Source: an uncultured Lachnospiraceae bacterium (GTDB taxonomy: Bacteria; Bacillota; Clostridia; Lachnospirales; Lachnospiraceae). Taken from it: DNA of 10,923 nucleotides. Position numbers and translations under genes: made by a program. The stretch's first letter is position 1. Every line of letters starts with the position of its first letter. Below, in pieces: positions 188-10,923 of this stretch. Where the stretch lies: assembly GCA_902783935.1 (NCBI GenBank), contig CACZTA010000103.1, positions 1 through 10,923 of the forward strand. Reading direction: 5' to 3'. Under the pieces are notes generated by a model. The model saw only the letters and a program-made list of their open reading frames with translations. It was not told the DNA's origin and did not search any database.

Positions 188-298
188 GCTGGACGGAATC
201 GGAAAGCAGGGTCTATTCCGGAGATTTTGACATGCAGATAGAATCCTGATCAAAAAACGCTTCCTTTGGGTTATAATATGGATTTATTATGCAAAAAA

Positions 299-309
299 TA
301 GACAACTTT
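299..309. promoter_or_regulatory. Putative distal operator half-site, TAGACAACTTT
   Basis: This 11-mer is the exact reverse complement of AAAGTTGTCTA at 446-456, inside the operon promoter. The shared core TTGTCTA also occurs at 363-369. An 11-base perfect match in opposite orientation about 140 bases away suggests a repeated regulator-binding element, possibly looping. Confidence 0.45.
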
Positions 310-362: not shown

Positions 363-370
363 TTGTCTAA
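363..370. promoter_or_regulatory. Putative middle operator half-site, TTGTCTAA
   Basis: Identical 8-mer to 450-457 in the same orientation. It contains GTCTA, the half-site of the HutC-subfamily GntR operator consensus (GT-N-TA then TA-N-AC). No facing TAGAC arm is adjacent, so this is a half-site match only. Confidence 0.4.
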
Positions 371-422
371 TTTTCACAAATTCAAACGTCCGGTTTTGTG
401 GTATGCGATGAAGTTTAGCTGA

Positions 423-457
423 GACAAAATAGACAGCATTGACACAAAGTTGTCTAA
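423..457. promoter_or_regulatory. Putative main operator over the operon promoter
   Basis: The tetramer GACA recurs at exactly 9-base steps (423, 432, 441), followed by TGTC at 451-454. Within this, TAGACA (430-435) faces TTGTCTAA (450-457) as an inverted pair. The second arm falls in the spacer of the promoter and the first arm lies just upstream of its -35, so a bound protein would block RNA polymerase. The GntR/HutC-type regulator encoded at 5855-6541 is the obvious candidate binder, by inference. Confidence 0.5.
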
Positions 458-467
458 ATGCTATGAT
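439..467 (+). promoter_or_regulatory. Main promoter of the nucleoside operon
   Basis: A perfect TTGACA (439-444) is followed after exactly 17 bases by TATGAT (462-467), with an extended -10 TG at 459-460. This is a near-consensus SigA-type promoter. Transcription would start near 474, giving a leader of about 60 bases. TTGTCTA-type elements overlap it, implying repression rather than activation. It is the only good promoter seen ahead of the nine-gene run. Confidence 0.8.
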
Positions 468-534
468 GCAGACAGATCTTACAGAATACATAAAACCAAT
501 GAACAAAACCAACGAAAAAGGGGGATTCATTCTT

Positions 535-1557
535 ATGAGAAAACTGTTACACGTATTAGTTGCAGCCGCCATAGGTACGACGCTCATGACAGCCGGAACT
601 GCCCTGACGGCAGCGGCCTCAGAAAAGGCAGCCTGCATCCTCGGTGTCGGAGGGCTGGGAGACCAGGGGTATAACGACCTTGTGTTTGCAGGTATGACAC
701 AGGCAAAAGAGGAACTCGGCATAGATTTCGACTATGCAGAACCGGCACAGATCTCCGACTTCGAGATGATTATGAGGGATATGTGCGACTCCGGGAGCTA
801 CTCGGTGATCGTATGCGTGGGGTTTGACCAGCTGGATGCTCTCACAAAAGTCTCGCCCGATTATCCGGATCAGTGGTTCGCCTTTATCGACGGCGTGGTC
901 GAAGAGCCGAACGTAGCGAATTACAACTGCAAGGAACATGAGGGATCCTTCCTGGTAGGCGCTCTCGCCGCACTGATGAAGCAGAATGCGTCATCATACG
1001 GACTCAGTGATAATCACAAATATGGTTTTGTCGGCGCGATGGACAATAACCTGATTAACAGCTTTGCCGCGGGATATAAAGCAGGAGCCGGGATCATCGA
1101 TCCGGATGCCGAAGTGGAAATCCAGTATGTGGGCGGTGACAACCCGTTCAGTGATACCACAACAGCGAAAGAAGTTGCCATGGGCGAATTCAACAAAGGC
1201 TGCGATATCATCTTCCACGCAGCGGGCGGCAGCGGACTCGGCGTATTCGCAGCAGCAAAAGAAGGTGATTTCATCGCAATCGGCTGCAACTCAAACCAGA
1301 ACGTACTTGATCCGGACCATATCGCAGCCAGCATGCAGAAGAAAGTCGATACAGCAGCCTACGAGATCGTCAGACAGGCCTCCGAAGGAACACTTCCGGT
1401 AGGCAAAACCACTACCCTCGGTATTGCTGAAGACGGCGTCGGATATACTGTGGAAGGCACCGGCATCGACATTCCGGATGAAATCATTGAGAAGGTTGAA
1501 GATCTTAAAGAAAAAATTGCGTCCGGTGAGATTACGGTTCCGGAAGAACTGGAATAA
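535..1557 (+). CDS. nupN: BMP-family nucleoside-binding protein of an ABC importer
   Basis: Extracellular solute-binding protein of the BmpA/PnrA/NupN (Med) family, which captures nucleosides for an ABC importer. The ATG at 535 is chosen because it follows a GGGGG-type ribosome binding site (520-524) and starts a Sec signal (MRKLLHVL...); an in-frame ATG at 439 lies upstream of any possible transcript start. The 340-residue product shows family blocks DGVVEEPNV, CKEHEGSFLVGA, YGFVGAMD and IIFHAAGGSG. Two oddities appear. There is no lipobox: the signal ends in TAAA|SEK (cleavage about 28/29) and the first Cys, residue 34, is already in the first strand. The usual GVDSDQ ligand motif reads GCNSNQ, with Asn252 in place of the Asp expected to contact ribose. 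It is first in the operon, 20 bases before the ATPase gene. Nucleoside specificity is inferred from family and context. Confidence 0.88.
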   Translation: MRKLLHVLVAAAIGTTLMTAGTALTAAASEKAACILGVGGLGDQGYNDLVFAGMTQAKEELGIDFDYAEPAQISDFEMIMRDMCDSGSYSVIVCVGFDQLDALTKVSPDYPDQWFAFIDGVVEEPNVANYNCKEHEGSFLVGALAALMKQNASSYGLSDNHKYGFVGAMDNNLINSFAAGYKAGAGIIDPDAEVEIQYVGGDNPFSDTTTAKEVAMGEFNKGCDIIFHAAGGSGLGVFAAAKEGDFIAIGCNSNQNVLDPDHIAASMQKKVDTAAYEIVRQASEGTLPVGKTTTLGIAEDGVGYTVEGTGIDIPDEIIEKVEDLKEKIASGEITVPEELE

Positions 1558-1577
1558 GAAAAGGGAGAAAAACAGGC

Positions 1578-3074
1578 ATGTATGCTGTTGAAATGAAGGA
1601 TATCATAAAACGTTTTGGCAGCTTTACTGCCAACAACGGGATCACGCTTCTTGTCAAAAAAGGAGAGATCCACTGCCTTCTGGGTGAGAACGGGGCAGGG
1701 AAATCCACTCTCATGAATATCCTGTTCGGCCTTTACAGGCAGGACAGCGGTGAGATCCGGATCAACGGAAAATCGGTTGAAAATCATTCTCCGCTTGCAG
1801 CTTCCCGGATGGGACTCGGAATGGTCCATCAGCATTTTATGCTTGTCGATGCACTGAGTGTCTGGGAAAACGTTGTGGTCGGACTTGAGCCCGGGGGCTT
1901 CCGGATCGACCGGAAAGAAAGCATCCGAAAAGTACAGGAACTGTCTGACCGCTATCACTTTGAACTAAATGCCGAAGAGCAGGTCGGAAACCTGTCGGTC
2001 GGCATGAAACAGAGGGTCGAGATTTTGAAGACGGTCTACCGGGGGGCAGAGATCATTATTATGGATGAACCGACGGCGGTTCTGTCTCCCCCGGAAGTGG
2101 AACAGTTCCTTATGATCCTCCGGGATATGCGGGCAGACGGGAAGACGATCATCTTCATCACGCATAAACTGAAAGAAACCCTGGCCGTGGCCGACAGGAT
2201 CACGGTCTTAAGGGCAGGGAAGTCCGTCAGTACGATTGAGGCCGGAAACGCATCTGCCCGGGAACTTGCCGGCATGATGGTCGGACATGAAGTCGATCTT
2301 GAGATCGAACGGCCTTTCAATGAGGCAGGCGGCGCGGTTCTGTCCGTCGAGGGACTGCGGCTTCTCCCGAATGCCGCATCAACGGTGAGTTTTGACATCC
2401 GCGAGGGAGAGATCTTCGGCATAGCAGGTGTCGAAGGAAACGGACAGAAACAGCTGGAAGAGATGATCATGGGGCTGATCAAGTGTCGGGAAGGACGGAT
2501 CTCCGTACTCGGGAAGGATGTCACGAAGCTCGGTACGCGGAAGAGACGGCAGCTCGGAATCGGATACATTCCGTCTGACCGCCTGAACAGGGCTCTCCTC
2601 TCATCTTTCAGTCTCGAAGACAACTATCTGCTCGGCAAACAGTTTTCGGACAATTACGTGCGGCACGGTATTGTCAGGCACAAAGCCGTAAAAGAAGCAG
2701 CAGGAACCCTGATGCGGGAATACGATGTCCGCGCAGCCGGAATGGATCAGGCAGCCGGCTCATTATCCGGAGGCAACCAGCAGAAACTGGTCGTCGGAAG
2801 GGAAGCATCAGATGAGCCGAAACTGATCATTGCGTGCCAGCCTGTGAGAGGCCTCGACATAGGGGCAATCCACTACATTCACGAAATCCTGCTGAAACTG
2901 CGGAAAGAAGGGAAGGCGATCCTCCTCATTTCCGCCGAACTCACAGATATCCAGCAGCTGAGCGACCGCATTGCGGTTCTCTATAAGGGCGAGATTCTCG
3001 CCGCAAGGAAGAATGAAGATTTCACGGAAGAAGAGATCGGGCTTCTGATCGCCGGTCACAGGGAGGCAGTATGA
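1578..3074 (+). CDS. nupO: Nucleoside ABC importer, fused double ATPase subunit
   Basis: Cytoplasmic ATPase with two fused ABC domains, 498 residues, the normal length for NupO/YufO and RbsA-like subunits. Domain 1 is complete: Walker A GENGAGKST (36-44), Q-loop Gln85, signature LSVGMKQR (139-146), Walker B IIIMDEP (Asp163, Glu164) and switch His196. Domain 2 is catalytically degenerate: its P-loop reads GVEGNGQKQ without the Lys-Ser/Thr, and its Walker B region reads IIACQPVRGLD, with Gln where the catalytic Glu should be; the signature LSGGNQQKL is intact. One active and one degenerate site is typical of this family, so it is not a defect. A GGGAG ribosome binding site (1563-1567) precedes the ATG. 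Its stop overlaps the start of the first permease gene. Sugar importers share this architecture; the BMP partner points to nucleosides. Confidence 0.92.
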   Translation: MYAVEMKDIIKRFGSFTANNGITLLVKKGEIHCLLGENGAGKSTLMNILFGLYRQDSGEIRINGKSVENHSPLAASRMGLGMVHQHFMLVDALSVWENVVVGLEPGGFRIDRKESIRKVQELSDRYHFELNAEEQVGNLSVGMKQRVEILKTVYRGAEIIIMDEPTAVLSPPEVEQFLMILRDMRADGKTIIFITHKLKETLAVADRITVLRAGKSVSTIEAGNASARELAGMMVGHEVDLEIERPFNEAGGAVLSVEGLRLLPNAASTVSFDIREGEIFGIAGVEGNGQKQLEEMIMGLIKCREGRISVLGKDVTKLGTRKRRQLGIGYIPSDRLNRALLSSFSLEDNYLLGKQFSDNYVRHGIVRHKAVKEAAGTLMREYDVRAAGMDQAAGSLSGGNQQKLVVGREASDEPKLIIACQPVRGLDIGAIHYIHEILLKLRKEGKAILLISAELTDIQQLSDRIAVLYKGEILAARKNEDFTEEEIGLLIAGHREAV

Positions 3075-4120
3075 TGGGTTCAGCGGATATGAGATCATTC
3101 CTCGCATTTCTTGGCCGGTCGCTTGCGGCGGTGCTCCTCTCGTTTGCAGTATCCGCCCTGATCATGCTTGTCTCGGGTTACAATCCTGCGCTTGCTTTTG
3201 CTTCCATGATCCGCGGATCTTTCGGGAGTGCCAATTCATTTGCCAATACGCTCTCCAAAAGTGTTCCGCTGATCTTTGCAGGCCTCGCCTGTGCCTATGC
3301 GAACAAAGGCGGCATTTTCAATATCGGCTGTGAAGGCCAGCTGTATATGGGCGCCTTTGTATCAACGGTGACCGCTCTTTCCCTCCGGGGAATGCCGAGG
3401 CTCTTCGTGATCATTGCATCCATTCTCACCGGCATGGCAGCCGGTGCGGCAGTCGGATCCTTCAACGGCTTCCTGAAAGCAAAAATGAAGCTGAATGAAG
3501 TAGTCGTCGCTATCATGCTCAACTATATCTGCCGGTTCTTTACGAGCTTCTTTGTGAGCGGGATCCTGAAGGATCCAGATTCGGAGACGCCCCAGACACT
3601 GCCGGTCGGCGAACACTACATGTTCTCGAAGCTGATTCCGAAAACCCAGCTGACGACAGCTCTTTTTCTGGCCCTGATTGCAGCGCTTGCGATGTTCTTT
3701 TTCTTCCGGGAGACAAGAGCCGGTTACAATGTACGGGCTGTCGGTGAAAACGGGGCTGCTGCCGAAGCTTCCGGAATCAATGTTGCCCGAACCATGATCC
3801 TGACGATGGCGGTCAGCGGAGGGCTTGCCGGTCTGACCGGTGTCACCGAAGTGTTCGGGAAGAGCGAACGGTTCATAGACGGGTTTTCACCGGGATACGG
3901 TTTTACCGGCATAGCGATCGCATTCCTTGCGGGGAATCATCCTCTTGGCATCCTGTTAAGTGCACTGCTCTTTGGAATCATCCAGGCCGGTTCGATGAAA
4001 ATGAGCTACGAAGCCGGAGTATCCACGAGCATGATCAGCGTGATCCAGGGTCTTGTCATCCTGTTTGTCGCCACACCTGAACTCGTGAGCATCCGGATTG
4101 GCAGAAGGAGGACGGCATGA
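3071..4120 (+). CDS. nupP: Nucleoside ABC importer permease 1
   Basis: Inner-membrane permease of the BPD_transp_2 (NupP/YufP, RbsC-like) family, about 349 residues, with an N-terminal membrane segment around 11-36 and roughly eight or nine more hydrophobic segments. The family motif GGIFNIGCEGQ lies at 80-90 and the EAA-like region RAVGENGAAAEASGIN around 218-233. Two start codons are adjacent: ATG at 3071 and ATG at 3074. GGGAGG (3061-3066) sits only 4 bases before the first but 7 before the second, so 3074 may be the true start; either overlaps the ATPase stop. Its own stop overlaps the next start (ATGA), implying translational coupling. It should pair with the second permease to form the channel. 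Confidence 0.9.
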   Translation: MMGSADMRSFLAFLGRSLAAVLLSFAVSALIMLVSGYNPALAFASMIRGSFGSANSFANTLSKSVPLIFAGLACAYANKGGIFNIGCEGQLYMGAFVSTVTALSLRGMPRLFVIIASILTGMAAGAAVGSFNGFLKAKMKLNEVVVAIMLNYICRFFTSFFVSGILKDPDSETPQTLPVGEHYMFSKLIPKTQLTTALFLALIAALAMFFFFRETRAGYNVRAVGENGAAAEASGINVARTMILTMAVSGGLAGLTGVTEVFGKSERFIDGFSPGYGFTGIAIAFLAGNHPLGILLSALLFGIIQAGSMKMSYEAGVSTSMISVIQGLVILFVATPELVSIRIGRRRTA

Positions 4121-5034
4121 ATCTGATTCACCAGATTTTTTCCATGAATATGCTGCTGGCGACGCTGAGAATGGCGATTCCGCTCACACTGGCTTCGATC
4201 GGCGGAGTGATCTGCGAAAGAAGCGGCATTATCAATCTGGGCGTCGAGGGAATGATGCTTTCCGGTGCATTCGGAGCGGTTGCCGGAACATACTTCACCG
4301 GCAGTTCTCTCGCAGGAATTCTTTTTGCCCTCCTTGTCGGCGGACTGACCGGACTGCTGCATGCAGTGCTTTGCATACGCTTTCACACCAGGCAGAGCGT
4401 CAGCGGAGTCGGCATCAATATTCTTGCTTCCGGACTTACGATCGTGCTCTGCCGGGCTGTCTGGAAGAGGGACGGTCTCAGCGAAACCGTGAAGCAGGTG
4501 CCGGGCATCAGCATTCCGGGACTTGAAAAAATCCCGGTGATCGGGAGGCTGTTCCGGGGCCAGTCCCCTTACCTCTACATTACGGTTCTGATCGTCATCA
4601 TCGCCTGGTTCGTGATGTACAGGACAAATGTCGGCTTGAGGCTCAGGGTGATCGGCGATCATCCGAAGGCAGCCGAAGCTGCCGGAGTCAATGTCACGAA
4701 ATACCGCTATGTATCGGTTGTCCTGTGCGGAATGCTCTGCGGATTCGCAGGCAGTTATCTCTCGATTGTACAGAGCAACCTGTTCGTAAAAGACATGGTC
4801 GCAGGAAGAGGCTACATGGCGCTGGCGGCCACGATCTTCGGAGGCTGGAATCCGGCGGGTTCCTTCCTCACAGCCCTGCTGTTCGCATTTGCACAGGCCA
4901 TCCGAATCAATGTCAGCCTGAATATCCCGGAACAGCTGCTACAGATGTTACCTTACGTACTCACACTGCTTGTCCTCATGGGCGTCGGCGGAAGGGTCCG
5001 CGGTCCTCAGGCTTCAGGGGATATTAAAGACTGA
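4117..5034 (+). CDS. nupQ: Nucleoside ABC importer permease 2
   Basis: Second membrane subunit, 305 residues, of the NupQ/YufQ type. The motif SGIINLGVEGMM (36-47) parallels the GIFNIGCEGQ of the first permease, and RLRVIGDHPKAAEAAGVN parallels its coupling-helix region, as expected for a heterodimeric pair. At least eight hydrophobic segments are visible. AGAAGGAGG (4103-4111) lies inside the end of the upstream gene, 5 bases before the ATG, and the ATGA overlap couples translation. After this gene comes a 31-base gap, the first real gap within the transporter-enzyme junction, but no promoter is evident in it. Confidence 0.9.
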   Translation: MNLIHQIFSMNMLLATLRMAIPLTLASIGGVICERSGIINLGVEGMMLSGAFGAVAGTYFTGSSLAGILFALLVGGLTGLLHAVLCIRFHTRQSVSGVGINILASGLTIVLCRAVWKRDGLSETVKQVPGISIPGLEKIPVIGRLFRGQSPYLYITVLIVIIAWFVMYRTNVGLRLRVIGDHPKAAEAAGVNVTKYRYVSVVLCGMLCGFAGSYLSIVQSNLFVKDMVAGRGYMALAATIFGGWNPAGSFLTALLFAFAQAIRINVSLNIPEQLLQMLPYVLTLLVLMGVGGRVRGPQASGDIKD

Positions 5035-5065
5035 ACACTTATAAGAAATACGGAGGTCTCACAAA

Positions 5066-5854
5066 ATGGAGAATAAAAAGAACACGGGTACACTTGACAA
5101 AATGGCTGAAACACTCGGAAAGAAGCAGTATCATGTCATGCTGAGTCCCGGCGATGTCGGAGAGTACGTTCTTCTTCCCGGCGATCCGGCTCGCTGCGAC
5201 AGAACCGCAAAATATCTTGAGAACGCCGAGCTGGTTGCGAACAACAGGGAGCACCGCACATTTACCGGTACTTACAAGGGTATCAAGGTCAGCGTCACTT
5301 CCACCGGCATGGGCTGCCCTTCCGCTGCCATCGCGATGGAGGAACTGATCAATATCGGAGCAAAGGGGTTCATCCGGATCGGAAGTTCCGCGGCTCTCGA
5401 TCCGAAAATCAGTATCGGCGACCTCATGGTAACCGTCGGATGCATGAAAAATGAAGGCACATCGAAGTTCTACGTTCCGGAGAATTTTCCGGCGATTCCG
5501 GACTTTGACCTGACCGGGTGCCTCCTGAAGACGGCGATGGAATTCTCCAAAGACAGGGACTATAATGTATATTACGGTATCACGTCGACTGACGATGCAT
5601 TCTACGGGGAGTCCCCCGAATTCATCGACCGGCTTCGTTCCTACAAGGTTATGAACCTCGATATGGAATGTTCGGGCCTCTTTACGGTAGCCCATATGCG
5701 CGGTGTGAGGGCGGCAGGGATTTGTGGTACTTCGGGCAACCTTACTAATGCAGATGTGATTTATACCCGGAAAAATGAGAGGCTGGCGCAGGCCTGGGAG
5801 GAAGAAATCCAGGTCGCGCTCGAGACCATTTACCGGTTTGAAAAAGGAGTCTAA
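5066..5854 (+). CDS. NP_UDP-family nucleoside phosphorylase, uridine phosphorylase-like
   Basis: Cytoplasmic enzyme expected to cleave a nucleoside with phosphate to a free base plus (deoxy)ribose-1-phosphate. The 262 residues include phosphate-loop GDP (39-41), Arg61, the block STGMGCPS (79-86), Arg104 in RIGSS and the ribose-binding Met200-Glu201 in NLDMECSG. Overall it most resembles uridine phosphorylase (GDPxR, EEL, RIG, FPAIPDF). However, the uracil-specific QER motif of E. coli Udp is replaced: after FY (179-180) it reads GESPEF. The PNP (DeoD) catalytic Asp in its SDH motif is also absent, the region reading GTSGNLT (221-227). Base specificity therefore cannot be assigned. The ATG follows GGAGG (5052-5056). 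The next gene starts directly after its stop. Confidence in family is high, in substrate low. Confidence 0.85.
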   Translation: MENKKNTGTLDKMAETLGKKQYHVMLSPGDVGEYVLLPGDPARCDRTAKYLENAELVANNREHRTFTGTYKGIKVSVTSTGMGCPSAAIAMEELINIGAKGFIRIGSSAALDPKISIGDLMVTVGCMKNEGTSKFYVPENFPAIPDFDLTGCLLKTAMEFSKDRDYNVYYGITSTDDAFYGESPEFIDRLRSYKVMNLDMECSGLFTVAHMRGVRAAGICGTSGNLTNADVIYTRKNERLAQAWEEEIQVALETIYRFEKGV

Positions 5855-6541
5855 ATGAAAAAGGCATACGTACAGGCATATGACCGGATCGTGGAAATGC
5901 TCGAAGACAACACCTATCCGCCGGGAAGCGCCCTCCCCACGGAGGTCCGGCTCGCGCAGATGGTCGGAACTTCCAGAATGACTGTCCGCCAGGCGCTGGA
6001 CCTGCTTCAGGCAGACGGAAAAATAGAGAAGCGAAAAGGATCCGGGAATTATGTGACGGTGCCGAATACGGAACTTAATCCGGGCATGAACCAGCTCGGA
6101 AACCCGATCGACAAGTGTCTGAGAACGCCCTATGACAGGACTGTTGTCGAATACGAGAAGGAAGAAGCAAACTCCTTCGCGAGGAATATGTTCGGCGGCA
6201 ATACCGAAGACATTATTTCGGTTTATGTCTATTATTACCGCGGAGATGAGCTGCTGGCTTACACGTATGCCATGCTGCGCGGGGATGTCTTCGGACTGGT
6301 TCCGGAAGAGGAGATTCGTGCGGACTTCACGAACATTCTCTATCAGAACGCCAGAAGGGCGCTGATCGAAATCCAGTTCTCCGCCGACAGAAGATCCCTG
6401 TGGCCGGTTAAGCTTAAAGCCGATGAGCGGATCCTGTTCATGACGGAGCATGTCATTGAAAAACGAAAAAAAGTGATCGCTGTCAACAAGCATTATCTGA
6501 GGCAGGGACTCTGCAGGATTTTGCTTGAGGCAGTGAAATAA
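5855..6541 (+). CDS. GntR-family transcriptional regulator, HutC/UTRA-like
   Basis: DNA-binding regulator of 228 residues. Residues 5-68 form the GntR winged helix: PPGSALPTEVRLAQ, recognition helix SRMTVRQALDLL (40-51), wing KRKGSGNYV (59-67). The C-terminal part, about 95-225, has the length and strand pattern of a UTRA ligand-binding domain (HutC subfamily), though short and divergent. Such proteins usually repress until a small effector binds. The ATG abuts the phosphorylase stop, with AAAAAGGAG (5841-5849) just ahead. Lying inside the operon, it probably controls it through the GTCTA-containing elements around 299-457; HutC-subfamily operators are built on GT-N-TA half-sites. The effector could be a nucleoside, base or pentose phosphate, by inference. 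Confidence 0.85.
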   Translation: MKKAYVQAYDRIVEMLEDNTYPPGSALPTEVRLAQMVGTSRMTVRQALDLLQADGKIEKRKGSGNYVTVPNTELNPGMNQLGNPIDKCLRTPYDRTVVEYEKEEANSFARNMFGGNTEDIISVYVYYYRGDELLAYTYAMLRGDVFGLVPEEEIRADFTNILYQNARRALIEIQFSADRRSLWPVKLKADERILFMTEHVIEKRKKVIAVNKHYLRQGLCRILLEAVK

Positions 6542-6553
6542 TATTCGAACGGC

Positions 6554-6571
6554 GCCCGGAATGTTCCGGGC
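6554..6571. repeat. Near-perfect palindrome between the regulator and yjjI genes
   Basis: GCCCGGAATGTTCCGGGC: 8-base arms around a 2-base centre, in the 51-base gap between gntR and yjjI. As RNA it would form a GC-rich hairpin of about seven pairs with a four-base loop; as DNA it is a compact operator-like site. No T-run follows, so it is not an ordinary terminator. The yjjI ribosome binding site (6582-6588) begins 10 bases downstream. Confidence 0.55.
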
Positions 6572-6592
6572 AGCCGGTCCCAGGGAGGCTGT

Positions 6593-8113
6593 ATGCTTGG
6601 TATCACCGATATGAAACAGGAAATCAGAGAGATTCTTGATAATACTGCACTGACGCATGAACAGGCAATGATGAATCTGTCTGCCGTTCCCCTCAACTAT
6701 GTGGAATTTTTCGAGACGACGAAAGAGTTCCGGGAACTCGAGGCCGCCGGGTGCCTGTGCACGATGAATGAAGGAAATGTCACGTATGCACCGCGCTATA
6801 TTCTTCCGGACTACGAAAAACTGCTCCGGGAAGGCTGCTCATTCCTGAGGCTCGGACCGGCCCGCACGCTGGAAGACGCCATCATGAACCTTGAGATTAT
6901 GTACCGGTTTGTACCTTCCGTCACGCATTACCCCGTTTATCTGGGAAGCGTCGACAAAATGCTGGAGCCCTTTATTGAAGACGAGGAGGACGCATATAGA
7001 CAGATCCGCCGCTTCCTGATCTTCCTCGACCGGACGATCCCGGATTCCTACTGCCATATGAATCTCGGCCCCGAAGCCACGAAAGCGGGCAGGATGATCG
7101 TGGAAATACAGACGGAACTCCAGAATGCCATTCCGTCCATTACGCTTCTCTACGATCCGGCCATCACTCCGGATGACTTCGCGGCAGCGTGTGCGGAATG
7201 CGCTCTTCGGTGTGCAAAACCGAGCTTCGCAAATGACAGGGAATACAAAAAGATTTATCCCGTTCCTTACGGAATCGCAAGCTGCTACAATGCGCTTCCG
7301 GTTGCGGGAGGCGCCTTTACCCTCTCGAGGATCGTGCTGGCCCGTCTCGCACCGAAGGCCAAGGACTCTGAACATTTCATTAATGAGCTGCTTCCGCATG
7401 CAGTGCAGGAACTGTGCGGCTATATCGAGCAGAAAATCACATTCCTTGTGGAGGAGACCCATTTCTTCAAGTCAAACTTCCTCGTTACGGAAGGCTTCCT
7501 GAAACTCGACAATTTTGTCGGTATGGTGGGAATGGTGGGCTTAAACGAATGCGTCAATATCCTTATGGAGAAGGACGGCGTTCCCGGAACCTACGGGCAC
7601 AGCGAATCAGCCGACCTTCTCGGCCGCAAAATCATGGACAGGCTGAAAGCGGAAGTCGAATCCTTCACAAGTAAGTTCTGTGCGGTTAACGGGAACCATT
7701 TTGTCCTTCATGCCCAGGTCGGCATTGCAGATGATTATGACATCAGTCCGGGGACCCGCATTGCAATCGGCAGCGAGATCCCGCTTCACGAGCACCTCAC
7801 ACACTGCGGAAAGTTCCATCCTTATTTCAACTCCGGCGTCGGCGATATCTTCCCGTTTGATGAGACGGCGGACCGCAATCCGGACGCCATCGTCGACCTG
7901 ATCAAAGGCGGATTTGCACAGGGAATGCGTTACTTCTCGACTTACTCTTCCGACGCGGATGTCATCCGGATTACCGGTTACCTCGTCAAGAAGTCGGATA
8001 TCGTGAAACTGGACAACGGGATTGCTGTCAATCAGGCCAATGCGATGTGGGGCCTCGGCGAAGTTAAGAACAGCCATATCCTGGACCGCAAAGTCAGGAG
8101 TTTCGCAGGATGA
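6593..8113 (+). CDS. yjjI: YjjI-family glycyl radical enzyme
   Basis: Oxygen-sensitive radical enzyme, 506 residues, close to the usual YjjI length (about 515). The C-terminal glycyl radical motif is RITGYLVKKSDI, with radical Gly462 (codon 7976-7978), matching RVxG[FWY] of the superfamily. A central segment VGMVGLNECVNIL (Cys320) recalls the VGLNE loop of anaerobic ribonucleotide reductases; Cys320 is a candidate active-site thiol, but this cannot be fixed by eye. There is no Cys-Cys pair as in pyruvate formate-lyase. Cys200, Cys203 and Cys207 form a CX2CX3C cluster of unknown role. No microcompartment-targeting peptide is apparent. AGGGAGG (6582-6588) precedes the ATG by 4 bases. The stop overlaps the activase gene. 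The family's reaction is, to my knowledge, not established; context points to a nucleoside-derived substrate. Confidence 0.9.
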   Translation: MLGITDMKQEIREILDNTALTHEQAMMNLSAVPLNYVEFFETTKEFRELEAAGCLCTMNEGNVTYAPRYILPDYEKLLREGCSFLRLGPARTLEDAIMNLEIMYRFVPSVTHYPVYLGSVDKMLEPFIEDEEDAYRQIRRFLIFLDRTIPDSYCHMNLGPEATKAGRMIVEIQTELQNAIPSITLLYDPAITPDDFAAACAECALRCAKPSFANDREYKKIYPVPYGIASCYNALPVAGGAFTLSRIVLARLAPKAKDSEHFINELLPHAVQELCGYIEQKITFLVEETHFFKSNFLVTEGFLKLDNFVGMVGMVGLNECVNILMEKDGVPGTYGHSESADLLGRKIMDRLKAEVESFTSKFCAVNGNHFVLHAQVGIADDYDISPGTRIAIGSEIPLHEHLTHCGKFHPYFNSGVGDIFPFDETADRNPDAIVDLIKGGFAQGMRYFSTYSSDADVIRITGYLVKKSDIVKLDNGIAVNQANAMWGLGEVKNSHILDRKVRSFAG

Positions 8114-8967
8114 GCGCAGGACAGAATGCGGCACTCGTCGCAAGGATCATACATCACAGTGTGGTGGACGGCCCGGGAAACCGGGCTGCGGTCTTTCTGC
8201 AGGGATGCAACTATCACTGTTCCTACTGCCACAACCCGGAGACGATTTCCGTCTGCTGCGGATGCGGAACCTGCGTGAGTATGTGTCCTGCCGGTGCGAT
8301 TTCCATTTCAGACGGCAGGGTCATCTGGGATGACGAAGCCTGTACAGGCTGTGATACCTGCATTCATGTCTGTCCCCACCTGTCCTCGCCGAGGGTGAGG
8401 CGCCTGACAGCGGAACAGGTCATGGAAGAGATCAGGGGGGATATCCCGTTCATCCGCGGAATCACGGTTTCGGGCGGCGAGTGCACATTGCAGAGAGATT
8501 TTCTGGTTGACCTTTTTACTCTCGCGAAAGAGCATAAACTGACAGCCCTCCTTGACAGCAACGGAAGCTATGACTATATGGCCGACGCGGAGCTGATGAA
8601 CCTCTGCGACGGAGTCATGCTGGATGTCAAGGCATTCGATACCGCCGTCCATAAAGAACTGACCGGACGGGGAAGCGAACCCGTAATAGAAAATGCCCGC
8701 AAACTCATGGCAGCCGGAAAGCTCACAGAAATCCGCACGGTTATCGTTCCGGGAGTTCTTCCTTCCGAAGAGACGATTGCCGGTATTGCGGATGTGCTGA
8801 AGGAATTTCCGGGATATGAGACGCTCCGCTATAAACTCATCGCCTACCGGAATCTGGGTGTCCGGGAGCCTTACAATACCCTCTTTCGTTCTCCGTCACC
8901 GGAGGAAATGCAGGACTTAAAGGCGTTCGCAGAACAGAAAGGCTTCAGAAATATAGTAGTCATTTAG
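8110..8967 (+). CDS. yjjW: YjjW-family radical SAM glycyl radical activase
   Basis: Activating enzyme, 285 residues, that uses S-adenosylmethionine and a [4Fe-4S] cluster to abstract hydrogen from the glycine of its partner, here presumably Gly462 of YjjI. The radical SAM motif CxxxCxxC is Cys33-Cys37-Cys40, followed by a ferredoxin-like insert with two CX2CX2CX3CP sets (Cys49/52/55/59 and Cys78/81/84/88), as in activases with auxiliary clusters. The SAM-binding GGE is at 122-124 (TVSGGEC). Near the N-terminus HHSVVDGPGNRAAVFLQGC is the usual activase lead-in. The ATG overlaps the yjjI stop (ATGA), with AGGAG (8096-8100) 9 bases upstream, indicating coupled synthesis. Radical SAM chemistry and the pairing are certain; assignment as YjjW rather than another activase rests on the YjjI partner. 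Confidence 0.92.
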   Translation: MSAGQNAALVARIIHHSVVDGPGNRAAVFLQGCNYHCSYCHNPETISVCCGCGTCVSMCPAGAISISDGRVIWDDEACTGCDTCIHVCPHLSSPRVRRLTAEQVMEEIRGDIPFIRGITVSGGECTLQRDFLVDLFTLAKEHKLTALLDSNGSYDYMADAELMNLCDGVMLDVKAFDTAVHKELTGRGSEPVIENARKLMAAGKLTEIRTVIVPGVLPSEETIAGIADVLKEFPGYETLRYKLIAYRNLGVREPYNTLFRSPSPEEMQDLKAFAEQKGFRNIVVI

Positions 8968-8989
8968 GGGGAATCAGGAGGATAAGAAG

Positions 8990-10366
8990 ATGAACCGCAC
9001 ACTGCTTGTGAAAAACGTGATGTGTATTGTCACCTGCGATGACAGCGACAGAGTCCTTCGAGATGCTGATGTTTTTGTAAAAGACGGCGTGATTGTCTCT
9101 GTCAGAAAAGCGGGGGATACGGCGGAAAGGGAAGCCGATGAGGTGATCGACGGCCGGCACATGGTGATGTATCCGGGGCTTGTCAACACCCACCACCACC
9201 TTTACCAGACATTCAGCCGGAATCTTCCGCAGGTCCAGAACATGGAGCTCTTTGACTGGCTGAAAACGCTCTATGAGATCTGGAAGAATCTTGACGAGGA
9301 GACCGTGTACTGGAGTTCGCTCACCGGCATCGCCGAGCTTCTCAAATACGGATGCACGACAGTCCTCGATCATCATTACGTTTTCCCGGATTCAGGGAAT
9401 GGCAGTGCGGACCTGATCGGAACACAGTTCGCTGCAGCAGACGTCCTCGGAGCGCGCTTCTATGCGACAAGAGGCAGCATGGACCTGAGCGTCAAGGACG
9501 GAGGCCTTCCTCCGGATTCCGTTGTCCAGAGTGTGGACGCGATCATGAAAGACAGCGAAGAACTCGTAAGACGGTACCACGACCGGTCTCCTTTTGCCAT
9601 GCACCGGGTGGCGCTCGCACCGTGTTCACCTTTCAGCGTCAGTGAAACACTTCTCAGGGAGACGGCGGTACTGGCGAGAGACCTGAAAGTCCGCATGCAC
9701 ACGCACCTTTGTGAGACGAAGGACGAAGAGAACTATATGCTGGAACGCTTCGGAATCCGGCCCCTGGAATATATGAGACGCCTCGGATGGACGGGAGACG
9801 ACGTCTGGTATGCGCACGGCATTCATTTTAACGATGAAGAGTTGAAATTCCTCGCCGAAACAGGCACCGGTGTGGCTCACTGCCCGGCTTCCAATATGAA
9901 ACTGTCGTCCGGTATTGCGAGAATTCCGGAAATGCTGAAGCTGGGAGTCAGAGTCGGTCTTGCCGTCGACGGGTCCGCCAGCAATGACGGATCGAGCCTC
10001 CTCGAGGAGATCCGCACCGCCTTCCTCCTTCACCGCCTGAATGCAAGCCATGAAGCGCCTTCCGCCTATGCGTTCCTCAAAATGGCGACAAGAGGCAGCG
10101 CCTCTGTCCTCGGCTGGGAAGAGATCGGCTCCGTCGAAGAGGGAAAAGCGGCGGACTTCTTCCTGATCGATTCAAGAAGACCCGCGCTCATCGGGGCGCA
10201 GGAAGACTTTGCAGGAGCTCCCGCCGCCATCGGGATCCGGGAACCGGTCGACATAACGGTCGTGAACGGCCGTGTCGTCGTGAGGGACGGTCATCTGACA
10301 GGAATGGATGAAGCGGTTTTATCCGAAAAAGCCAATCAGGTATTTGAAAAATATATCGGCAGATAA
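8990..10366 (+). CDS. Amidohydrolase, probable 8-oxoguanine deaminase
   Basis: Metal-dependent deaminase of the amidohydrolase superfamily (ATZ/TRZ-like subgroup), 458 residues. The metal and catalytic set is complete: His68 and His70 in NTHHHLYQ, His239 and Glu242 in HTHLCET, His276 in YAHGIHF, Asp327 in AVDGSASND. Segments such as TRGSMDLSVKDGGLPPDS, LAPCSPFSV and CPASNMKLSSGI match my memory of Pseudomonas 8-oxoguanine deaminase, which converts 8-oxoguanine to urate plus ammonia. Related enzymes deaminate guanine, isocytosine or triazines, so the substrate is probable, not certain. It does not resemble SsnA closely. AGGAGG (8976-8981) lies 8 bases before the ATG, 22 bases after the activase stop. 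It is the last gene before the terminator. A base deaminase fits downstream of a nucleoside importer and phosphorylase. Confidence 0.85.
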   Translation: MNRTLLVKNVMCIVTCDDSDRVLRDADVFVKDGVIVSVRKAGDTAEREADEVIDGRHMVMYPGLVNTHHHLYQTFSRNLPQVQNMELFDWLKTLYEIWKNLDEETVYWSSLTGIAELLKYGCTTVLDHHYVFPDSGNGSADLIGTQFAAADVLGARFYATRGSMDLSVKDGGLPPDSVVQSVDAIMKDSEELVRRYHDRSPFAMHRVALAPCSPFSVSETLLRETAVLARDLKVRMHTHLCETKDEENYMLERFGIRPLEYMRRLGWTGDDVWYAHGIHFNDEELKFLAETGTGVAHCPASNMKLSSGIARIPEMLKLGVRVGLAVDGSASNDGSSLLEEIRTAFLLHRLNASHEAPSAYAFLKMATRGSASVLGWEEIGSVEEGKAADFFLIDSRRPALIGAQEDFAGAPAAIGIREPVDITVVNGRVVVRDGHLTGMDEAVLSEKANQVFEKYIGR

Positions 10367-10372
10367 CACTTT

Positions 10373-10404
10373 GGAAGACGGGTTCTTTTGTGAACCCGTC
10401 TTTC
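10373..10404 (+). terminator. Rho-independent terminator of the nucleoside operon
   Basis: GACGGGTTC (10377-10385) and GAACCCGTC (10392-10400) form a perfect 9-base stem with loop TTTTGT, extended by A-T pairs to 10375/10402. It starts under ten bases after the deaminase stop. The T tail is short (10401-10403, then CG), so termination may be incomplete. No similar hairpin with T-run was seen between the nine genes. Confidence 0.8.
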
Positions 10405-10522: not shown

Positions 10523-10923
10523 ATGAAAAAGATGATGATAGCCCTCTTGGCTCTGGCTGTAAGTATGGCTGTTGCTTCGGTTACATGGGCGGGTCCGTTT
10601 GAGCACTACTATGATTATATGAATCCGGACGGGACATTTGCCTATTACTTTGATCAGGGATCAGGAGTCTTTGTTACCCTCGATCAGAACTGGTATCAGC
10701 ATACATTTGTAAAAACATCCGACCGCGGTGCGACATTTTATCACCGGGACAGTTACCTGGCTTATGAAGAAGAAGGAGTGGAAGGCGGCCGGCTGTTTAC
10801 GCTCGGCGCATCTGTCAATACCGGCTTCAGGGAACTGCCGAGCTTTGAGTATATCGGCTTTGACGAAGAATCAGCGATGAATTATTATGCGGAACTGCCG
10901 TCTGACTATCAGGCGTACATGGA
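10523..10923 (+). CDS. Secreted protein of unknown function (partial, C-terminus missing)
   Basis: An open frame of 133 codons runs off the window. AAAGGAG (10506-10512) precedes the ATG by 10 bases. The first 23 residues are a Sec signal (MKKMMIALLALAVS, core to Val20) with a likely signal peptidase I site TWA|G at 23/24 and no lipobox. The visible mature part is acidic and rich in Tyr and Phe, for example HYYDYMNPDGTFAYYFDQ, VTLDQNWYQHTF and EESAMNYYAELPSDYQAY. It lies beyond the operon terminator with its own upstream region, so it is probably a separate unit. I do not recognise an assigned family and give no function. Confidence 0.8.
   Translation, partial: MKKMMIALLALAVSMAVASVTWAGPFEHYYDYMNPDGTFAYYFDQGSGVFVTLDQNWYQHTFVKTSDRGATFYHRDSYLAYEEEGVEGGRLFTLGASVNTGFRELPSFEYIGFDEESAMNYYAELPSDYQAYM

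Follow-up and report, generated by a model that had tools for sequence, protein, structure and literature searches.

What does the glycyl radical enzyme YjjI do among genes that appear to serve the uptake and cleavage of nucleosides? The question is raised by a contig of 10923 bases from an uncultured Lachnospiraceae bacterium (CACZTA010000103.1), referred to here as the window. The window fills an entire contig; the assembly to which it belongs measures 1.82 Mb and is 76% complete, and for this reason the absence of a gene from the assembly carries little weight. Nine open reading frames lie on the plus strand between positions 535 and 10366, where the original prediction had placed them. Its further claim that yjjI and the activase gene yjjW stand between importer, phosphorylase, and regulator genes on one side and a deaminase-like gene on the other was borne out by family profile matches. 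The nine genes are as follows:

535..1557, + strand: BMP-family substrate-binding protein (PF02608, 2e-54)
1578..3074, + strand: ABC transporter ATPase (family profile match)
3071..4120, + strand: ABC permease 1 (PF02653)
4117..5034, + strand: ABC permease 2 (PF02653)
5066..5854, + strand: nucleoside phosphorylase superfamily protein of a separate subtype (PF01048, SGN motif)
5855..6541, + strand: GntR-family regulator (PF00392, 7e-18)
6593..8113, + strand: YjjI glycyl radical enzyme, 506 amino acids (TIGR04040, 634 bits, cut-off 498.3)
8110..8967, + strand: YjjW radical-SAM activase with a ferredoxin-like cluster segment (TIGR04041, 362 bits, cut-off 250.2)
8990..10366, + strand: amidohydrolase passing the 8-oxoguanine deaminase model (NF006055, 579 bits, cut-off 532)

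It had been noted from the outset that no reaction is established for YjjI, and none was found to be assigned in the open-access literature, a search that could miss subscription papers. The Escherichia coli K-12 protein is still on record as "DUF3029 domain-containing". A class III NrdD-like domain was already predicted for YjjI in 2011, and the only functional guess encountered, a role in nitrogen metabolism, was drawn from co-expression with narG and from motifs, according to the accessible part of that paper (PMC3228777). As far as the open-access literature shows, the gene families are known, and the association with nucleoside genes and the single-cysteine, NrdD-like reading presented here are new.

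Linkage of yjjI to nucleoside genes

The link between yjjI and BMP or other nucleoside genes is real within the phylum of the window, but it is not universal. The survey covered 295 genomes from the order and 398 from the phylum, with YjjI called at more than 600 bits in the order sample and at E up to 1e-50 in the phylum sample. Besides the window's own genome, 19 and 25 genomes, respectively, were found to carry YjjI. Many weak matches were also obtained in the order sample; the ten examined (L101–L110) end like NrdD, the class III ribonucleotide reductase. For 40 of the 44 genomes (G464, G369, G501, and G405 were left out), as much as 20 kb of sequence surrounding yjjI was collected, less where a contig ended, and these neighborhoods were compared with 40 control windows, each 19.9 kb long, drawn from 18 of the YjjI-bearing genomes. 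Genes were assigned with family profiles built from clustered neighbors and E. coli proteins, at thresholds that we set.

A BMP gene was found within 5 kb of yjjI at 13 of the 40 loci (L138, L139, L142, L144–L148, L150, L152, L154, L166, and L171) and in none of the 40 whole control windows. The number expected by chance is 0.40 loci, given the 0 to 6 BMP genes per genome. A BMP-type permease gene lies within the same distance at 17 loci and in no control. The corresponding counts for phosphorylase, deoC, and deoB were 2, 0, and 1 of 40, against 0, 1, and 1 controls, respectively. Within 9.5 kb, the counts rise to 16/40 against 0/40 for BMP and to 18/40 against 2/40 for any nucleoside gene. 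The original prediction had named a neighborhood survey as its own refutation test; run within the phylum, the survey gave an enrichment of BMP and nucleoside genes and did not refute the proposal. No earlier report of a linkage between yjjI and nucleoside genes was found in the open-access literature.

Two further sets of loci were compiled. Among the best 80 of 531 relatives in named genomes, a set biased to the query, BMP was found within 5 kb at 21 loci, and 36 loci have some nucleoside gene within 9.5 kb. A gene-order set of 118 loci remained from 122 once identical YjjI ends had been removed; within 9.5 kb, 41 of these have BMP and 57 have a nucleoside gene of any kind. No partner is more constant than the importer, BMP being present at 41 of the 57 linked loci. 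On a FastTree tree, at least 17 changes are needed for BMP and at least 20 for any nucleoside gene, with gains and losses indistinguishable. BMP genes are present in 43 of 44 YjjI-bearing and 25 of 36 YjjI-less genomes, a comparison confounded by ancestry, and deoC occurs in 42 of 44 and 30 of 36, respectively, with no clear difference.

The order bmp-yjjI-yjjW-ATPase-permeases recurs: BMP is immediately upstream at 22 of the 118 loci, with a permease downstream at 21 of these 22. Other arrangements include yjjIW-nucleoside hydrolase-bmp, yjjIW-bmp, bmp...permeases-yjjIW, and divergent blocks. Among the further neighbors, curated models identified uridine phosphorylase, ribokinase, deoC, deoB, an Indigoidine_A protein, nucleoside hydrolase, cytidine deaminase, and adenosine deaminase. 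Indigoidine_A is the pseudouridine glycosidase (PsuG-like) family. Genes for such a protein and for a PfkB kinase lie near yjjIW at eight loci (L022, L023, L025, L031, L059, L062, L065, and L074), seven of them Clostridium-titled and one from a Bacillota assembly. At L144–L147, L150, L152, and L154, the bmp-yjjI-yjjW block is immediately preceded by genes for both parts of a class I fumarase-type hydratase, a neighborhood that may reflect shared ancestry only.

The importer gene set of the window is complete, with the PF02608 protein, ATPase, and two permeases that also make up BMP/PnrA nucleoside importers, and solved-structure relatives of the BMP protein include Lbp, TmpC (PnrA), and BmpD. 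The BMP protein has IGCNSNQ where many relatives show IGVDxDQ, and the system is regarded here as a putative nucleoside importer with a deviating motif. The phosphorylase fails the uridine phosphorylase model TIGR01718 (197.5 bits against a cut-off of 280.3) and carries an SGN motif in place of the uridine phosphorylase or DeoD motif. By its model cut-off, the amidohydrolase is a predicted 8-oxoguanine deaminase. That name was rejected as a blanket label for the surveyed amidohydrolases: of seven tested, L002, L251, and L252 pass the model and L008, L009, L012, and L254 fall below its cut-off, so that our survey family "8oxoG_deam" denotes amidohydrolases of this superfamily. In common with deo deoxynucleoside operons, the window has a phosphorylase-family gene; unlike them, it lacks any deo gene and has yjjIW instead. 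Profile searches found no deoC among the nine genes, and the deoC of this genome sits on contig C125.

The IGxN motif of BMP is shared by the window, L002, and L004–L010, and the SGN motif of the phosphorylase by the window, L004, and L006–L010, whereas most other YjjI loci show an IGVDxDQ-like BMP motif and phosphorylase motifs of the uridine or DeoD type. Phosphorylases at least 55% identical to that of the window were found in seven genomes of the phylum sample, none YjjI-bearing; the only such phosphorylase of the order sample belongs to G048 (53%), whose YjjI lies on another contig. Sister loci without YjjI (L251–L257) carry importer genes in six of seven cases, an amidohydrolase in six, and deoC in four, and all three of the deoC genes tested pass the curated model. 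The SGN pattern was matched in five of the seven phosphorylases, and all five BMP proteins seen are of the IGCN type, four of them keeping the second Asp. No deoC lies within 9.5 kb at any of the nine YjjI loci of the IGxN type, the view at the window being limited to its contig. The difference, 4/7 against 0/9, gives a Fisher p of 0.02 on small numbers. Since sister operons without YjjI carry deoC in four of seven cases, YjjIW appears to be an optional part of the module, placed where relatives have deoC. The IGCN-type BMP and SGN-type phosphorylase travel with the amidohydrolase, and the combination may serve as a route for an atypical nucleoside, for example 8-oxo(deoxy)guanosine.

Fold and residues of YjjI

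The YjjI of the window passes its profile cut-off, has the conserved Cys and the Gly of RxTGY, and is encoded next to yjjW. It belongs to the same family as E. coli YjjI (b4380 and, for YjjW, b4379; TIGR04040 and TIGR04041), with 37% identity over 506 columns and with the gene order, Cys231, and the RxTGY glycine all kept. Close relatives are found in many Clostridia, including gut species, as judged from record titles. An alignment of 122 YjjI sequences, 118 of them different, draws attention to three codons:

6794..6796, + strand: Arg68, roughly opposite the second catalytic cysteine of NrdD in a low-confidence alignment
7283..7285, + strand: Cys231, the thiyl candidate and the only strictly invariant cysteine (122 of 122 sequences)
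7976..7978, + strand: Gly462 in RITGYL, the glycyl radical candidate, kept in at least 98% of the 122 sequences

Position 56 is Cys in 115 sequences, Ser in five, Asn in one, and a gap in one. The best fold matches of the predicted YjjI model, which has a predicted local distance difference test (pLDDT) score of 92.7, are class III ribonucleotide reductases. YjjI shares with NrdD the barrel fold of the predicted model, a profile match, and the RxTGY glycine. It differs in that the second, reductive cysteine is not invariant, that the HxHD triphosphate motif and the Zn-finger segment before the Gly loop are absent from the window's YjjI sequence as aligned, and that no Pfam match to an ATP-cone was found, although some NrdDs also lack the ATP-cone. 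YjjI has 506 amino acids against 639–809 in the NrdD open frames, and its partner is YjjW and not NrdG. The window's genome holds a separate, normal NrdD.

Glycyl radical enzymes of the glycerol/propanediol dehydratase type and of the pyruvate formate-lyase (PFL) type (PF02901) rank lower in the fold search. Y-N follows C231 in YjjI, in contrast to CxE, the cysteine motif of glycyl radical dehydratases. The window YjjI gave no match to PF02901 at E 0.001, a tag that many relatives carry. No solved structure of a YjjI relative was found by sequence search or among the Foldseek matches listed. A BMP–YjjI fusion, P0042, was not used; a YjjI cut before its glycine loop is joined there to a cut BMP, which marks a deletion or an assembly chimera. 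A search of a phage collection with a YjjI returned four records named Salmonella or Escherichia.

Possible reactions of YjjI

Radical attack on a pentose without the reductive half of NrdD is the most likely chemistry for YjjI. Going further, we tentatively favor, at somewhat under an even chance, an enzyme of NrdD build that is stripped of regulation and acts by elimination in anaerobic nucleoside catabolism. The BMP importer would take in a nucleoside, and YjjW would use S-adenosylmethionine to install a radical on Gly462, the site predicted from the family. The radical would move from Gly462 to Cys231, whose thiyl would abstract a ribose-ring hydrogen, as in NrdD, from the nucleoside or from a (deoxy)pentose phosphate derived from it. 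A neighboring OH or other group would then leave with no net reduction, since the reductive-half cysteine of NrdD is not conserved in YjjI. The phosphorylase and deaminase would handle the glycosidic bond and the base, and the GntR protein would repress the operon. The constancy of the importer favors the nucleoside itself as substrate and the deoC comparison favors a sugar phosphate; the fold match together with the deoC comparison favors the sugar part over the base.

Taken as a whole, the proposal of an NrdD relative turned to nucleoside catabolism, with one cysteine, no allosteric parts, and a radical elimination on the sugar, is possible though doubtful. If it is true, an oxygen-sensitive opening of nucleosides would stand beside phosphorolysis, hydrolysis, and DeoC, RNA- or DNA-derived nucleosides would be used anaerobically, and the fold of a DNA-synthesis enzyme would have been reused for catabolism. 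The link to nucleoside import, the NrdD-like fold, and the missing reductive cysteine together narrow the field to a small number of compounds open to assay.

A number of observations weigh against elimination on a nucleoside-derived sugar. The 3'-keto product of a simple elimination would be unstable, which speaks against elimination at the level of the nucleoside. The lowest NrdD rows of the fold search tie in Z with the best other glycyl radical enzymes, and the position of Arg68 opposite the NrdD cysteine relies on a weak stretch of the profile alignment. The 13 BMP-linked loci are not independent: the 40 sampled loci cover 17 family codes, and these 13 are confined to four of them. The sampled counts for deoC, deoB, phosphorylase, and hydrolase are each non-significant alone. 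Many Clostridium loci hold yjjIW alone or only beside a PsuG-like gene, no constant third enzyme that would take up a product is present, and 61 of the 118 loci have no nucleoside gene near yjjI. The proposal that YjjI may act on a nucleoside, a pentose phosphate, or a base is partly supported: it has the linkage in the phylum behind it, and just over half of the loci are unlinked. In other lineages, the nucleoside-gene profiles were unmatched near yjjIW in Proteus, Vibrio, Aeromonas, Haliovirga, and Chloroflexota records, and the delta-proteobacterium-titled L061 is likewise unlinked.

The original prediction had leaned on two unrelated lineages. The adjacency to deo that it gave for E. coli is correct, with yjjIW divergent from deoCABD; unlike the window, that locus has no BMP profile match. 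In the accessible parts of two sources on Haemophilus influenzae, HI0520 and HI0521 are given as a radical SAM protein and YjjI (PMC3877243), and one short variable region of a type f genome holds a NupC/NupG nucleoside transporter together with YjjI and a radical SAM protein (PMC5609409); the latter agrees with E. coli. In the five other-lineage loci, the only survey-profile match was FNR-like, in Haliovirga, and the Pfam names assigned to 20 of the flanking frames in Vibrio, Proteus, and Aeromonas include no nucleoside gene. The neighbors of yjjI in Proteus are smp-, serB-, and radA-like, genes that in E. coli stand beyond deo. The E. coli neighborhood alone is therefore weak evidence, and the case for deo linkage as a decisive second lineage is weakened. 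Of the Spirochaet*-titled loci, two are linked (L009 and L079) and one is unlinked (L013).

It is rather unlikely, yet worth weighing, that YjjI has a general anaerobic role apart from nucleosides and that membership in the operon only borrows its regulation. The unlinked loci, including the five from other lineages, fit such a role, as does a cyclic-nucleotide-binding-domain (FNR-like) regulator gene on the other strand beside yjjIW at 21 of the 118 loci; in 19 cases it is divergent and immediately upstream. The same arrangement is seen in Haliovirga (L260). Against a general role stands the repeated joining of yjjI to the same importer in differing orders, far beyond chance. We think it unlikely that YjjI is a one-cysteine, formate-using reductase that converts ribonucleosides or pentose phosphates to 2'-deoxy compounds, with the invariant Arg68 binding formate and deo enzymes cleaving the products to glyceraldehyde 3-phosphate and acetaldehyde. 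In its favor, NrdD is the nearest fold, E. coli and one clade of the phylum have deoC, deoB, or deoA near yjjI, and no additional enzyme would be required. Formate is made under FNR-activating conditions. E. coli yjjI is among the operons listed as directly activated by FNR in the accessible text of PMC3688515. Class III reductases, as described in the parts available of PMC11226230 and PMC4493059, use a second cysteine, however, and none is invariant in YjjI; this argues against a reductase and leaves room for direct use of formate. Moreover, deoC is missing within 9.5 kb at most linked loci.

Improbable, to a greater degree, is a replacement of DeoC by YjjI, which would use the deoxyribose 1- or 5-phosphate that the phosphorylase sets free. 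The exchange of deoC for yjjIW between sister operons and the adjacency of deoC to yjjI in E. coli would fit such a substitution. The sister comparison involves few loci of differing lineages, some on short contigs, and YjjI and deoC co-occur at L050, L056, L078, L138, L139, and L142. The window's genome also keeps its deoC elsewhere, and nearly all of the YjjI-bearing genomes searched have the gene. Least probable is action on a released base or on some other compound, not a sugar, that the same importer takes up. The amidohydrolase of the operon and the constancy of the importer agree with it, but the cleaving enzymes, and hence the bases, vary between operons, and the fold matches a ribose-handling family.

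Operon layout and control elements

The gaps between the nine genes are 20, −4, −4, 31, 0, 51, −4, and 22 bases. A single operon fits these gaps together with one promoter-like site accompanied by TTGTCTAWW repeats and one hairpin after the last gene. The elements are as follows:

297..305, − strand: operator-like repeat TTGTCTATT, a TTGTCTAWW copy
363..371, + strand: operator-like repeat TTGTCTAAT, a TTGTCTAWW copy
430..456, + strand: inverted repeat TAGACAGC...GTTGTCTA, spanning the −35 box and symmetric at 7 of 8 positions
439..467, + strand: promoter-like site TTGACA-17-TATGAT with TG, 11 of 12 matches, the best in the window
516..524, + strand: ribosome-binding-site-like run AAAAGGGGG ahead of ATG 535, as read from the sequence
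6547..6579, + strand: GC-rich hairpin in the gntR–yjjI gap; the stretch 6542–6592 folds at −24.7 kcal/mol
10373..10404, + strand: terminator-like hairpin of 13 pairs; the stretch folds at −23.1 kcal/mol

The TTGTCTAWW motif has three copies in the window, all within 297–458, where 0.20 are expected, and none of 200 shuffles reached three. The inverted repeat at 430–456 is a candidate site for the operon's own GntR regulator. Of the strong promoter that had been claimed ahead of the operon, the position holds, in that the best site of the window precedes the genes; it counts as a consensus match only, because 14 similar sites were observed in the window against 8.7 ± 3.0 expected by shuffling. 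The single terminator claimed behind the operon corresponds to the 13-pair hairpin, which is missing from the list of the terminator scan. The mechanical list of open reading frames begins the first gene at TTG 439, and it is ATG 535 that has the ribosome-site-like run before it. No riboswitch or structured RNA was matched by Rfam in the window, nor in positions 1–560 at E 0.5.

For E. coli strain H10407, the accessible part of PMC4287617 records a CRP peak in the interval between yjjI and deoC. In the window, a plus-strand frame with a signal-peptide-like start lies 3' of the terminator-like hairpin, at 10524–10923, and runs past the end of the contig.

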